Positions 10,248-14,205 of a stretch of 64,000 bases of DNA are shown in pieces. The DNA is from Pararhodobacter zhoushanensis (GTDB taxonomy: Bacteria > Pseudomonadota > Alphaproteobacteria > Rhodobacterales > Rhodobacteraceae). The stretch is from contig NZ_REEZ01000002.1 in assembly GCF_003990445.1 (NCBI RefSeq), positions 127,121-191,120 on the forward strand. The letters are read 5' to 3'. The translations under genes were made by a program, and so were the position numbers. Each line of letters begins with the position of its first letter. Position 1 is the stretch's first letter. The notes beneath the pieces were generated by a model, which saw only the letters and a list, made by a program, of their open reading frames with translations, did not search any database and had not been told where the DNA came from.

Positions 10248-10715
10248 TTAGCGGTCGAGCTTGAGCAGATGATCGAGCGAGAGGCGGCCCGGGCCGTAAG
10301 CGAGGACAACCAGCAGGCTGGCGGCCCAGGTGCCGTGGAGGACCCAAGCCTCGGGGAAGACGAAGATTTCGATGACGGCGGTCATCACGAGAAGGCCAGC
10401 GGCGGAGAAGCGGCCGGCGAGGCCGAGGATGATCAGCACCGACAGGCTGTGTTCCCCGATGGTGGCCATGACGGCGGCCCAGTTGGAGGGGATCAGCGGG
10501 ATATTGTAGATGTTTTCAAACAGATAATAGGTCTGATCCTTGATCATGAACCCGTCGACCTTGGTGCGGGCCGATTGCCAGAAGACGATACCGATGAACA
10601 GCCGCGCGGCGAGTTGCACGAGATCCTTGGGCATCAGCCGCCCGGCCAGCGCATTGAGCGCGCGGATGCGGGGGCGCAGGCCGGTCATGGGGGCGGTGAG
10701 GGTTGTGTCGGTCAT
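10248..10715 (-). CDS. DoxX-family membrane protein of the bufferin locus
   Basis: 155 residues with about four membrane segments ([49 protein letters not shown] and a final [10 protein letters not shown]), the DoxX topology. It is the last gene of the four-gene bufferin/gig operon and overlaps the preceding bufC by four bases (ATGA). In known gig operons the DoxX protein is the fourth member (GigT/GigD). Its role is uncertain; a redox or membrane partner for the metallophore pathway is inferred. Followed at once by repeat E. Confidence 0.9.
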
Positions 10716-11446
10716 GGCGTCTCTCCGATCTGGGCGATCAGCTGGTGGCGGATGAGCAGCGCCAGCAGCGGGGTTGGGTCGGTGGTGGCGGCCCTGGCGA
10801 AGGGCTGGCCGCTCAGCAGGTTGGTGAGGATGGTGTGCTGGTCTCGGGCCAGCGGATCGACGGTGACGGCGAAGCCGGGGGTGCGGGCGATGAGGGCGTA
10901 TTGCGGGCCCTTGGGCAGGGGCGCGGGCCGGGCGCCGGGCTGGTTCTGGTGCCAGAGCGAGACGGCAGGGTGCTGCGCGGCGTAGGCGCGGACCGAGGGC
11001 GCGAGGGTCAGCCGGAGCCGCGCAGGATCGACGGTAGCCAGCGCGGAGGGGTCGGCGCGGGCGGCGTCGGCGGCGTGGTAAGCTTCACCGCGCAGCCATT
11101 CCAGACGGGCGACATCGGGCAGATAGGGCAGCGATTGCGCCGGGGGAAAGGTGGCGAGGAAATCGGGGAAACTGTCGCCCCAATCGAGCAGGACCGGCGT
11201 TTGCGGCGGGTGCTGCGCGGCAAAGACGCGGGCCGTGGCGGCGAAGAAGTCGGGCCCGACAAGCCGCTCGATGACCGGGAAGCGCGCGGCAAGAGCGCGG
11301 CTGAGGCCGTGCTGGACGTTGTTGCGGTAGACGGCAAAGCGGCGGTCCAGCGCCTGCGCCTCGCCCAGCCCCTGCGGTGTCTGGGGCGACCAGAGCGCCG
11401 CGTGCAGCCGGGCCTGCGTGGTGGCGTGATCAGGCGGCGTGTGCAT
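10712..11446 (-). CDS. bufC: DUF2063 partner protein of MNIO enzyme (BufC/HvfC type)
   Basis: 244 residues. The N-terminal part ([73 protein letters not shown]) is the DUF2063 domain, which acts as the substrate-recognition partner of DUF692/MNIO enzymes. The C-terminal part is a smaller variable domain. It overlaps the bufB end by 17 bases and the DoxX start by four, showing tight translational coupling. Inferred role: present the BufA1 precursor peptide to BufB in the cytoplasm before export. Confidence 0.9.
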
Positions 11447-12287
11447 GGCGGGCCTCTGTCAGCAGGGTCTCGGCGCGGGCAGCCTCGGCCAGCAGGGTGT
11501 CGAAGCCGGGCACGTCGTTGTCCCATTCCACAAGGCTGGGCAGCGGGCCGGTCCGTGCCAGAACCTCGGCGTAAAGCGTCCAGACCGGATCGGCGACCGG
11601 GCGCGAATGGCTGTCGATGAGCAAGGGGCCATCGGGCAGCGCTTCGGCCTCGTGACCTGCCAGATGGATCTCGCCCACCAGCTCCAGCGGGAAAGCCGCG
11701 AGATAGGCGCGCGGGTCGGTGCGGTGATTGGTGGCCGAGACGAAGACGTTGTTGACGTCCAGCAAGAGGCCGCAGCCGGTGCGGTGGGCGATCTCGCGCA
11801 GGAAATCGGCCTCGGGCCAGGTGCTGTCGGCAAAGGTCACGTAAGTGGCCGGGTTTTCCAGCAGCAGGCGGCGGCCCAGCGCGGTCTGCGCCTGATCGAT
11901 ATGGGCGCAGATCGTGGTTAAGGTTTCATCCGTGTAGGGCAGCGGCAGCAGATCATTCAGCCAGTCCGCGCCATGCGAGGACCATGCCAGATGTTCGGAA
12001 AAACTCTCGGGTTGATGGCGGTCCAGCAGACCGCGCAGGCGCTTCAGGTGGTCAGGGTCCAGCGGCCCTGCCCCGCCGATCGACAGACCGACCCCGTGGA
12101 TGGAGAGCGCGTGCTCGGCGTGCAGCCGTTCGAGCATGGCATGCGGAGCACCGCCCGCGCCCATGTAATTCTCGGCGTGGACCTCGAAGAACAGCGCGGT
12201 TTTGGCCTGCACTGCCTGCGCGAAATGCTCGGGCTTGAAGCTGAGGCCCGGCGCGGCGGGCAGGCGGAAATCGGGGGAGGAGATCAT
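11430..12287 (-). CDS. bufB: DUF692 MNIO enzyme modifying the bufferin precursor (BufB/HvfB type)
   Basis: A 285-residue TIM-barrel enzyme of the multinuclear non-heme iron oxidative (MNIO, DUF692) family. Family motifs in order: [78 protein letters not shown] and LVEWDNDVP, which carry the His, Glu, Asp and Asn residues for the iron cluster. Known relatives oxidise cysteines of small precursors to sulfur heterocycles (thiooxazole or oxazolone-thioamide). It sits 70 bases downstream of the precursor gene, which has four cysteines, so BufA1 is the expected substrate. Normal family length. Confidence 0.94.
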
Positions 12288-12321
12288 GGCTTCGGTCCTG
12301 CGATGCGTGCGTCAGGAGAGC

Positions 12322-12350
12322 GGCCGCCCCGGCACCGGGCCAGGGCGGCC
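12322..12350 (-). promoter_or_regulatory. Intra-operon hairpin after bufA1
   Basis: On the transcribed strand the arms GGCCGCCC and GGGCGGCC enclose a nested CCCGG/CCGGG pair, giving a strong stem just after the bufA1 stop and before bufB. There is no T-run. Such stems often protect the upstream message from 3' decay, which would favour precursor over enzyme. Confidence 0.5.
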
Positions 12351-12357
12351 AGCGGGG

Positions 12358-12738
12358 TTACATCATCGTCGGCATGTAGGTGTCGGCGATCTCCGAGGCC
12401 AGCGTCGGCGGCAGGTCGCGCTTGATACCCGCCCCGTAACCACCGGCTTCCAGCTGCTCGGCGGTCGCCCCCATGCGGGCATGACCCATGCCATCGGCGG
12501 GCAGTTCCATCGTCGCGCAGGTGCCGGCGGGAACCAGCGTCCAGGCGTTGCCCTGATAGTCGATGGTCGAGGTGCCCGCGCAGCTGGTGCCGGGACCGGC
12601 GGCGCAGTCATTCGCACCAGCCATCGAGACGCCGTAGCAGCGCTCTTGCGCCATGTCGTCGGCAGCGGCCATGCCGGTGGCGGCCAGCGAAAGGGCGGCG
12701 GCGATCGAGGCGGCAAGGATCGGGGTGTGTTTGGTCAT
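12358..12738 (-). CDS. bufA1: Bufferin-type RiPP precursor BufA1 (DUF2282), exported copper-binding peptide
   Basis: 126 residues. A Sec signal peptide covers about residues 1-26 ([10 protein letters not shown], hydrophobic run, GMAAA). The mature part has exactly four cysteines, Cys34 ([15 protein letters not shown]), Cys45, Cys53 (TSCAGTS) and Cys74 (PAGTCAT), in the pattern of DUF2282 bufferins/gold-induced GigP peptides, followed by about 50 residues without cysteine. Family knowledge: some of these cysteines are oxidised by the DUF692 enzyme and the periplasmic product binds copper. First gene of its operon, divergent from the ECF sigma gene, with a TGTAAC-N17-CGTC promoter upstream (12789-12815). 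Confidence 0.92.
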
Positions 12739-12788
12739 GAGGTAGCTCCCTGAAAAGGCCCCGCATCCGTTGCGGGCCTGCCAGTCAG

Positions 12789-12815
12789 GACGCAGACACT
12801 CGGCGATCCGTTACA
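12789..12815 (-). promoter_or_regulatory. Putative ECF sigma promoter of the bufA1 operon
   Basis: Read on the minus strand: TGTAAC (12815-12810), exactly 17 bases, then CGTC (12792-12789), 50 bases before the bufA1 start. The same arrangement, TGTAAC-N17-CGTA, lies on the other strand before the sigma factor gene. Two identical spacings in one divergent gap make chance unlikely. Confidence 0.65.
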
Positions 12816-12870
12816 GCGATCACGCAGCCGTGACATTGCCGCGTTTTTCGTCGAAATTACGCAGGGGCGG

Positions 12871-12897
12871 TGTAACAACACCCCGGTCCGACCCGTA
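12871..12897 (+). promoter_or_regulatory. Putative ECF sigma autoregulatory promoter
   Basis: TGTAAC (12871-12876), 17 bases, CGTA (12894-12897). It mirrors the bufA1 promoter and suggests that the sigma factor activates its own gene. The CGTA box overlaps the AAGGAG ribosome site (12897-12902), so a transcript from here would begin only a few bases before the GTG start at 12908 and be almost leaderless. Confidence 0.6.
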
Positions 12898-12907
12898 AGG
12901 AGAGTAC

Positions 12908-13456
12908 GTGAACACGTCACAAGACCCGAGCTGGGAGCATCTGATGCGCGCCGCCAATCGCGGCGATCAGCGCGCCTATGGGCGGCTCTTGATCGCGATC
13001 ACGCCGGTTGTGCGCGGCATTGTCCGGGCACGCGGCGGGACGCTGGGCACGCAGAGCGGGGAAGACATTGTGCAGGAGGTTCTGCTGACCATCCATCTGA
13101 AGCGGCAGACCTGGCACGAGGACGCGCCGCTGCGCCCGTGGCTCTATGCCGTCACGCGGCACAAGGTGATCGACGCGTTCCGCGCGCGCGGCAAGCGGAT
13201 CGAGATCCCGGTGGACGAGATCGCCGAGGTGCTGCCCGCCCCCGCTGGCCCCGATCCGTTCGAGGCCCAGGATATGGAGCGGGTGATCGACCAGCTCGAC
13301 CCGCGCGCGGCGCAGATCGTGCGTGCGATCGGGATAGACGGAGACAGCGCCGCAGAAACCGGCGCGCGGCTGGGCATGACCGAGGGGGCGGTTCGTGTGG
13401 CCTTGCACCGGGCGCTCAAAAGCGTCGCCCGGTTGCGCGAAAGGATGATTGAATGA
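12908..13456 (+). CDS. ECF-type RNA polymerase sigma factor (SigF/NrsF-system type)
   Basis: 182 residues. Sigma region 2 (LMRAANRGDQRAYGRLL, SGEDIVQEVLLTIH, RPWLYAVTRHKVIDAFRARGKR) and region 4 (VIDQLDPRAAQIVRAI, AETGARLGMTEGAVRVALHRAL) are both present. Start is GTG at 12908, consistent with the family N-terminus ahead of LMRAAN. The stop overlaps the start of an NrsF-type anti-sigma gene by four bases. Known relatives (Caulobacter SigF, Cupriavidus RpoQ) answer to metals such as chromate, cadmium, copper or gold and drive DUF2282/DUF692 operons; here the target is probably the divergent bufA1 operon. Confidence 0.93.
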   Translation: MNTSQDPSWEHLMRAANRGDQRAYGRLLIAITPVVRGIVRARGGTLGTQSGEDIVQEVLLTIHLKRQTWHEDAPLRPWLYAVTRHKVIDAFRARGKRIEIPVDEIAEVLPAPAGPDPFEAQDMERVIDQLDPRAAQIVRAIGIDGDSAAETGARLGMTEGAVRVALHRALKSVARLRERMIE

Positions 13457-14085
13457 AGACCGAAGAGCTCATCGCGGCGCTGGCCGCCGACACCACGCCC
13501 CGACCGGCCCCCGCCCGGCGGATGGCGCGTGCCTTGCCGCCCGCGCTGCTGGTGTCCGGACTGGCGCTGGTGACGCTGTGGCACACGCGGCCCGATCTGG
13601 CCGAAGTGCTGACCTCACCCACCGCCTACAAGACGCTGGTGCCCGCACTGTTGGCGCTGGCGGCGCTGTGGCTGGCGAAGGGGCTGAGCCGCCCCGAAGC
13701 GCGGGCGACCGCGCAGCGCGCGCTGATGGGAGGGCTGCTGGCAGGGCTGGCGGCGCTGCTGGTTTATGCGCTGGCGACGACGTCGTTGGCCGAGATCGCC
13801 GAGATCCTCGACACCCGCGATTTCAGCAACTGCCTGATTTCGGTGCCTGCTTTGGCCGCTTTGCCTCTGGCGGGCACGCTCTGGGCCCTGCGCGCCGGCG
13901 CGCCGCGCAGCCCGGGTTGGACGGGCGCGGCGGCAGGGCTGGTGGCCGGCGGCAGCGCGGCTGCGATCTATTCGCTGCATTGCCCGCACGACCCGCTGAT
14001 GTATTTCTTCCCGGCCTATGGCACCGCGATGGCGATTGTCACGGTAGCGGGTGCGTTGATCGGGCGGCGGCTGCTGCGGTGGTGA
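13453..14085 (+). CDS. NrsF-type (DUF1109) membrane anti-sigma factor
   Basis: 210 residues with about six membrane segments after a short cytoplasmic N-terminus (MKTEELIAALAADTTPRPAP). This is the NrsF/DUF1109 plan, in which the N-terminal tail holds the sigma factor and the membrane part senses stress. Two cysteines lie in or near the membrane part (DFSNCLISVP and SLHCPHDPLMYFFP); the second is in the conserved C-terminal block. Inference: metal or thiol chemistry at these residues frees the sigma factor. It overlaps the sigma stop by four bases (ATGA). Confidence 0.9.
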   Translation: MKTEELIAALAADTTPRPAPARRMARALPPALLVSGLALVTLWHTRPDLAEVLTSPTAYKTLVPALLALAALWLAKGLSRPEARATAQRALMGGLLAGLAALLVYALATTSLAEIAEILDTRDFSNCLISVPALAALPLAGTLWALRAGAPRSPGWTGAAAGLVAGGSAAAIYSLHCPHDPLMYFFPAYGTAMAIVTVAGALIGRRLLRW

Positions 14086-14089
14086 GGTC

Positions 14090-14183
14090 GGTGGGGTTGA
14101 ACCCCACCCTACAGCGCGCCCGTAGGGTGGGGTTTAACCCCACCCGTAAGCACACCATCCGTAGGGTGGGGTTCAACCCCACC
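14090..14183. repeat. Three tandem palindromes GGTGGGGTT-N-AACCCCACC
   Basis: Units at 14090-14108, 14126-14144 and 14165-14183, each with perfect 9-base arms and one central base (G, T, C), two of them preceded by GTAG. They fill the gap between the convergent anti-sigma and pirin genes. They look like a REP-type or bidirectional terminator cluster and are distinct from the composite repeats A-I. Confidence 0.8.
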
Positions 14184-14205
14184 CTTTACTCCGCCCTACC
14201 CCGCC

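Follow-up and report, generated by a model that had tools for sequence, protein, structure and literature searches.

A type-1 bufferin locus beside a SigF/NrsF pair in Pararhodobacter zhoushanensis: gene content, predicted promoters and a conserved palindrome

Gene content of the locus

We analysed a 64,000-nucleotide stretch of Pararhodobacter zhoushanensis DNA (assembly GCF_003990445.1, contig NZ_REEZ01000002.1, positions 127,121 to 191,120 of the forward strand), referred to here in its whole length as the window. Between its positions 10248 and 14085 lie six genes that we read as a type-1 bufferin (captophorin) system beside a SigF/NrsF pair that probably switches it on, a reading to which we give a probability of roughly 0.86. 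The gene content, the iron site of the enzyme, the NrsF cysteines, the divergent SigF-type promoters and the conservation within the genus were all read from sequence, whereas the metal-controlled production of a modified copper peptide, as the original prediction had it, would follow by analogy with characterized systems. The genes are as follows.

12358..12738, minus strand: bufA-type precursor, DUF2282, 126 amino acids, with Cys34, Cys45, Cys53 and Cys74 and 52 residues after Cys74 (Pfam, alignment)
11430..12287, minus strand: BufB-type MNIO maturase, 285 amino acids (Pfam, NCBIfam, iron-ligand counterparts, model)
10712..11446, minus strand: BufC-type DUF2063 partner, 244 amino acids (Pfam; under the HvfC cutoff)
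10248..10715, minus strand: DoxX-family membrane protein, 155 amino acids (Pfam; under the HvfX cutoff)
12908..13456, plus strand: ECF sigma factor of SigF/ECF16 type, 182 amino acids, GTG start (Pfam, PRK12512)
13453..14085, plus strand: NrsF-family anti-sigma factor, 210 amino acids, with Cys127 and Cys177 (Pfam; under the AntiSigF_NrsF cutoff)

Re-reading the open reading frames gave the same six genes and the same layout that the original prediction had described, i.e. a minus-strand four-gene operon divergent from a sigma/NrsF pair, and all six family assignments were matched by Pfam over cutoff. The E values were 1e-23 for DUF2282, 8e-103 for MbnB_TglH_ChrH, 2e-25 for DUF2063, 4e-16 for DoxX and 8e-42 for NrsF, and the sigma gene product matched Sigma70 regions 2 and 4, also above cutoff; in bits, DUF2282 scored 83.5 (cutoff 22.4), DUF2063 89.3 (27.2) and NrsF 143.8 (26.8). 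At the more specific level of NCBIfam, the maturase passed MNIO_BufB (NF050167) with 371 bits against a cutoff of 310 and the sigma factor passed PRK12512 with 215 against 198; the precursor had no match among the NCBIfam models. Overlaps of 4–17 bases had been claimed, and these were measured as 17 bases between the MNIO and DUF2063 genes and 4 bases between the DUF2063 and DoxX genes, the precursor and MNIO genes being separated instead by a gap of 70 bases. The adjacent sigma and NrsF/DUF1109 genes likewise overlap by 4 bases. Just 3′ of nrsF, at 14090-14196, a palindrome of the GGGTGGGGTTnAACCCCACCC type occurs three times, at spacings of 36 and 39 bases; the copies are REP-like (resembling repetitive extragenic palindromes) and possibly form a terminator array.

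The gene set has close published parallels. In Caulobacter, CC3254-CC3257 encode DUF2282, DUF692, DUF2063 and DoxX proteins, are numbered beside sigF-nrsF and depend on SigF (PMC3511200); the SigF regulon is induced by copper, in the presence of which a sigF mutant grows poorly (PMC8224329), all of which bears out the comparison with Caulobacter drawn at the outset. The parallel claimed with Cupriavidus stands in part: its operon responds to gold, silver and copper (PMC8224329) and an NrsF orthologue is named (PMC3511200). The likeness to Caulobacter extends to the same six families and a four-gene transcription unit, although in Caulobacter SigF also controls a second DUF2282-DUF692-DUF2063 operon, whereas the genome studied here holds a single MNIO match. 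With type-1 bufferins or captophorins in general the locus shares the four-cysteine DUF2282 precursor, the MNIO enzyme with its DUF2063 partner, DoxX and, as in some of them, sigma and NrsF genes (PMC12452194, PMC13097082), and no categorical difference sets it apart from them.

Maturase, precursor and predicted cysteine chemistry

By sequence, the solved structures nearest to the maturase were 3BWW (E value 1e-37), TglH and MbnB. A structural comparison of the 285-residue enzyme with known MNIO proteins, which the original prediction had proposed, gave the same three: the nine top-ranked PDB chains for its AlphaFold model (mean predicted local distance difference test score, pLDDT, of 88.6; 26 aligned sequences) were those of 3BWW, TglH and MbnB. 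The iron ligands reported for MbnB are His55, His91, Glu135, Asp165, Asn168, His194, Asp209 and Glu238 (PMC8888699). Their counterparts in BufB are H64, H99, E144, D177, N180, H208, D225 and E254, seven of which fall inside the alignment to MbnB chain 7dz9_A, H64 lying outside it and being placed by motif and order. All eight were the same in every one of the 81 enzymes aligned, namely that of the window and those of 80 surveyed loci, which ranked best among at least 573 loci from named genomes. By family score, ligand residues and modelled fold, the protein is a BufB-type MNIO enzyme with an intact iron site. Its DUF2063 partner gave no match to PDB sequences at E≤1.

In the precursor, the columns of Cys34, Cys45, Cys53 and Cys74 were invariant in all 31 precursors aligned out of the 81, the window's included. 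The N-terminus, a putative Sec signal peptide when read by eye, has a lysine near the start, a hydrophobic stretch and AAA before DD (ending AAADD). Published work on type-1 bufferins places the modification on the central cysteines and a disulfide between the outermost two, and tabulates the change as thiooxazole (PMC12452194); thiooxazole formation has been extended to enzymes with a DUF2063-type partner (PMC13097082). Because the central-cysteine thiooxazoles are defined by these accounts, a prediction is possible where the earlier view was that the exact cysteine modification could not be predicted: by analogy, Cys45 and Cys53 would become thiooxazoles and Cys34 and Cys74 a disulfide. In the sequence of events suggested by the homologues, BufB and BufC would oxidize Cys45 and Cys53 in the cytoplasm, the peptide would be exported via Sec, the outer cysteines would then form their disulfide and the mature peptide would trap excess periplasmic copper. 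A related genome (G025) carries two DUF2282 precursor genes in tandem.

The C-terminus of the precursor is extended.

12361..12516, minus strand: codons for the long tail that follows Cys74, ending TYMPTMM (genus comparison; ratio of non-synonymous to synonymous substitution rates, dN/dS)

There are 52 residues after the fourth cysteine, against a median of 27 in other precursors, the commonest C-terminal end of which resembles ...GSLEAL.RDLPA. The whole precursor has 126 residues, with a methionine-rich tail, compared with 93 residues in Caulobacter, but is within the published range of 30 to 835 residues for type-1 bufferins. A long tail was found in nine of the 11 precursors of the genus, those of L012 and L013 being short, and of the tail residues, 67 of 513 are methionine in the nine distinct proteins of the genus, as against 179 of 2768 in the 98 distinct ones from elsewhere. 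Tails of at least 40 residues also occur in 10 of these 98 non-genus precursors, and that of a Loktanella locus (L081, where the stretch read contains no nrsF) is likewise rich in methionine and aspartate, so the feature is not unique to the genus. In eight pairs dN/dS was 0.02–0.35 for the tail and 0–0.21 for the core, which indicates from the codons that the tail is under purifying selection; we infer for it, tentatively, a copper or oxidant role.

The sigma/anti-sigma pair, its promoters and the adjoining palindrome

Cys127 and Cys177 of NrsF were conserved in 23 of 23 NrsF proteins and correspond to Cys131 and Cys181 of the Caulobacter protein. There, the two cysteines help to keep the sigma factor inactive, their replacement raises expression of the regulon, and release of sigma by metal has been shown for chromate (PMC3511200). 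By the same logic, copper or another thiol-reactive agent would hit the two cysteines of the membrane anti-sigma factor, and the sigma factor so released would fire both of the divergent promoters predicted between the two transcription units.

12872..12897, plus strand: SigF-type promoter predicted for the sigma gene, GTAAC-N17-CGTA (genus intergenic comparison)
12789..12814, minus strand: SigF-type promoter predicted for the precursor operon, GTAAC-N17-CGTC (genus and 79-locus comparison)
12820..12833, no strand assigned: predicted operator, a TCACG-N4-CGTGA palindrome set 5 bases ahead of the -35 of the precursor promoter (conservation)

Both promoter sites have TGTAAC at -35 and N17 to the CG, and thus fit in -35 and spacing the consensus (T/C)GTAAC-N17-CGAA of ECF16 factors (PMC8315932). 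The -35 is also of the GTAAC type in Caulobacter, with similar spacing and the same NrsF cysteine pair, but its -10 is CGAA rather than CGTA or CGTC. Among the ten intergenic regions compared from the genus, the window's included, the precursor promoter was present in 10/10 and the sigma promoter in 9/10, L062 being the exception. The predicted -10 of the sigma gene stands merely 10 bases 5′ of its GTG start (12894-12908), with GGAG between them, and other loci of the genus are alike; the sigma mRNA would be nearly leaderless, or the real start codon would be further downstream.

Beyond the genus, the SigF-type element, scored as GTAAC-N16..18-CG at 60–95 bases before the precursor, was found in 19 of the 22 surveyed loci with nrsF and in none of the 57 without it (Fisher, 1.7e-15). 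These upstream counts use 79 loci, L092 having been left out for too little upstream sequence, and the absence of nrsF refers to the stretch read, at most about 6 kb per side and shorter at contig ends. As a control for kinship, loci were collapsed at 85% BufB identity, which left 16/19 against 0/39 (1.2e-11), and at 75% by single linkage, which left nine clusters. It is only because they are conserved that the predicted promoter sites are convincing. Three exact GTAAC-N17-CGTA sites occur in the genome, of which one is the sigma gene promoter. A second (L043) was considered as a promoter of a DUF411 gene and rejected, as it lies on the same strand about 0.8 kb past the gene's 3′ end and cannot drive it; near the third (L044) no metal gene was recognized by eye.

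The palindrome is conserved in its own right. Its arms are fixed in all 11 loci of the genus, the window's included, while the loop varies; in loci with nrsF it usually stands 5 or 6 bases before the -35, and 19 promoters aligned at GTAAC gave the consensus TCACg....CGTGA, with L128 and L139 among the misfits. In the loci without nrsF a like box stands ahead of a different promoter (34 aligned), and a GTGA-N10..12-GTGA tandem was present in 26/57 of these compared with 0/22 of those with nrsF. Altogether, 43 of the 79 loci have the box ahead of the precursor gene (9/22 with nrsF and 34/57 without), where shuffled sequences gave a mean of 0.15 and a maximum of 2 per 79, and 16000 random 130-base stretches gave 92 (0.6%); after collapse it remained in 28/58 clusters at 85% and in 3/9 at 75%. 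The palindrome's position next to the precursor promoter, together with its presence in loci that lack nrsF, implies a second regulator, beyond the sigma pair, that probably binds there. The claim that the operon is under a sigma/anti-sigma pair holds as to coupling, but the pair probably does not act alone.

These data also bear on whether the sigma pair might be a mere neighbour, with the factor at the box controlling the operon as in relatives with no such pair close by. The frequency of the box, far above that in random and shuffled sequence, speaks for this, but the occurrence of GTAAC-N16..18-CG coincides almost without exception with that of nrsF, and 5 or 6 bases usually separate the element from the box; both therefore more likely act together, and we regard exclusive control by the box factor as improbable. 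When the 22 largest gene clusters listed from loci lacking nrsF were inspected, none was conspicuous as a candidate for the regulator. Within the genome itself the box was hardly enriched, with 8 exact sites against about 5 by a composition estimate and 0 for a reversed control; a longer form with one mismatch gave 6 sites against 1 in the control. The tandem form had 10 exact sites in nine relatives, of which 8 match, letter for letter, the box that precedes the precursor gene; in one relative (G068) the tandem upstream of the precursor was found only as a one-mismatch match. Elsewhere in the genome studied here, on contig C5 (1465-1514 of L075), two boxes 36 bases apart directly follow a phytochelatin-synthase-domain gene; they were rejected as a promoter site, since the second overlaps the start of the next gene, and the metal link is kept as a lead. 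Pfam searches of six proteins near four other box sites of this genome gave no copper family.

Distribution in the genus and weight of the evidence

A sample of 19 genomes of the genus, of which 13 were at least 90% complete, gave a DUF2282 match in 11 (8/13 of the more complete ones). All 11 also have the other five genes, in the same order and on one contig in 10 and on two contigs in G013, and because the six-gene set recurs in each of them a chance assembly is excluded. The precursor of a locus on a contig labelled Novosphingobium sp. MW5 (L079) is 96% identical to that of the window and identical to that of G018, a member of the same genus; the label may be wrong.

The remaining eight genomes, three of them less than 90% complete, had no DUF2282 match, and the system is therefore dispensable. 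An NrsF match was present in 18/19 genomes, including 7 of these 8. In six, the adjacent sigma factor was only 27–35% identical to that of the window and the NrsF protein had no BLAST hit at 1e-4, so this is a different pair; G008 (82% complete) has a closer one, 64% and 48% identical, with a stop inside the NrsF match, which suggests either a lineage loss of the system or a limit of the assembly. Two members of the genus in which DUF2282 had no match carry a protein with CxxCH divergent from a distant ECF/NrsF pair: one with long NPCA-type cysteine repeats adjoining a DUF3179 gene (L051, 3249-4355) and one with GEAEAE repeats (L046, 6451-7518). Neither had a Pfam match at 1e-3, and the idea that such a neighbour is cytochrome P460-like was dropped, as Pfam did not back it. 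Absence from eight genomes might also suggest that the locus in the window is decayed or silent, but its six frames are intact, its precursor is under purifying selection in core and tail and its promoters recur across the genus; we consider decay highly improbable.

Several further observations weigh, with the patchy distribution (five of the 13 good genomes lack a DUF2282 match), against the reading of the locus as a copper-induced bufferin system under SigF. Three NCBIfam equivalog cutoffs were missed, by HvfC (61.7 against 142), HvfX (50 against 80) and AntiSigF_NrsF (91 against 300), and the AlphaFold model of the precursor was poor (pLDDT 57.8), too poor for its structure to be used as evidence. 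The -10 elements, CGTA for the sigma gene and CGTC for the operon, differ from the published CGAA, which many relatives with nrsF do have before the precursor. The motif alone is unremarkable, with about one chance match per window, and its three exact GTAAC-N17-CGTA sites in the genome compare with 28 for a reversed control, i.e. no enrichment; collapse at 75% left the promoter test weak (2/2 against 0/7, P=0.028), and in 6 of the 22 nrsF loci the sigma pair follows the operon instead of diverging from it.

The nature of the signal is a separate matter. The same chemistry could serve in defence against oxidants (hypochlorite or reactive oxygen species), with the NrsF cysteines sensing oxidants and the methionine tail as a sacrificial sink, and the methionine-rich tails of the genus would suit this. 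We nevertheless judge it rather unlikely, as no SigF-type site precedes the match to NF003767 (which we take to be MsrP) in the genome of the window, and just one of 12 genus loci scanned had one. Related ECF16/NrsF pairs do respond to hypochlorite or reactive oxygen species, as in the systems of Brucella and Azospira that react to chlorine species (PMC8315932), and a Caulobacter sigF mutant is impaired in stationary-phase resistance to oxidative stress (cited in PMC8224329); copper thus need not be the main signal, which also counts against our reading. Brucella BcrS-AbcS resembles the pair described here in its NrsF-family anti-sigma factor, two conserved cysteines and (T/C)GTAAC-N17-CG promoter, but it responds to hypochlorite and controls bcrXQP, whereas the present pair neighbours a bufferin operon (PMC8315932). 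That a methionine-rich protein and MsrPQ-like genes are under the Brucella pair (PMC8315932) would also suit a role in oxidant defence.

With a bufferin system switched on by SigF/NrsF as the preferred reading, a wider proposal is possible, although we hold it to be more doubtful than not: Rhodobacterales bufferin operons would be under a dedicated TCACG-N4-CGTGA regulator, and the genus would have layered SigF/NrsF on this older control and added the methionine-rich tail as a second soft-ligand copper(I) site or oxidant sink. It draws on the forms of the box, often two in tandem, 15 bases apart, where there is no sigma pair and one where there is. We met no published account of a box shared by bufferin promoters or of the methionine-rich extension, in a literature search that is blind to DNA motifs. 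What we put forward as new is that SigF-type promoters track nrsF, that the box occurs both with and without nrsF and that the genus has a methionine-rich tail.

The locus is ordinary in kind, adding one more clean and complete case to a class of copper-defence peptide systems that is very common, and it is the conserved extra control site and the methionine-rich tail that are unusual; either the palindrome or the extension might account for the tuning of bufferin production or metal binding.

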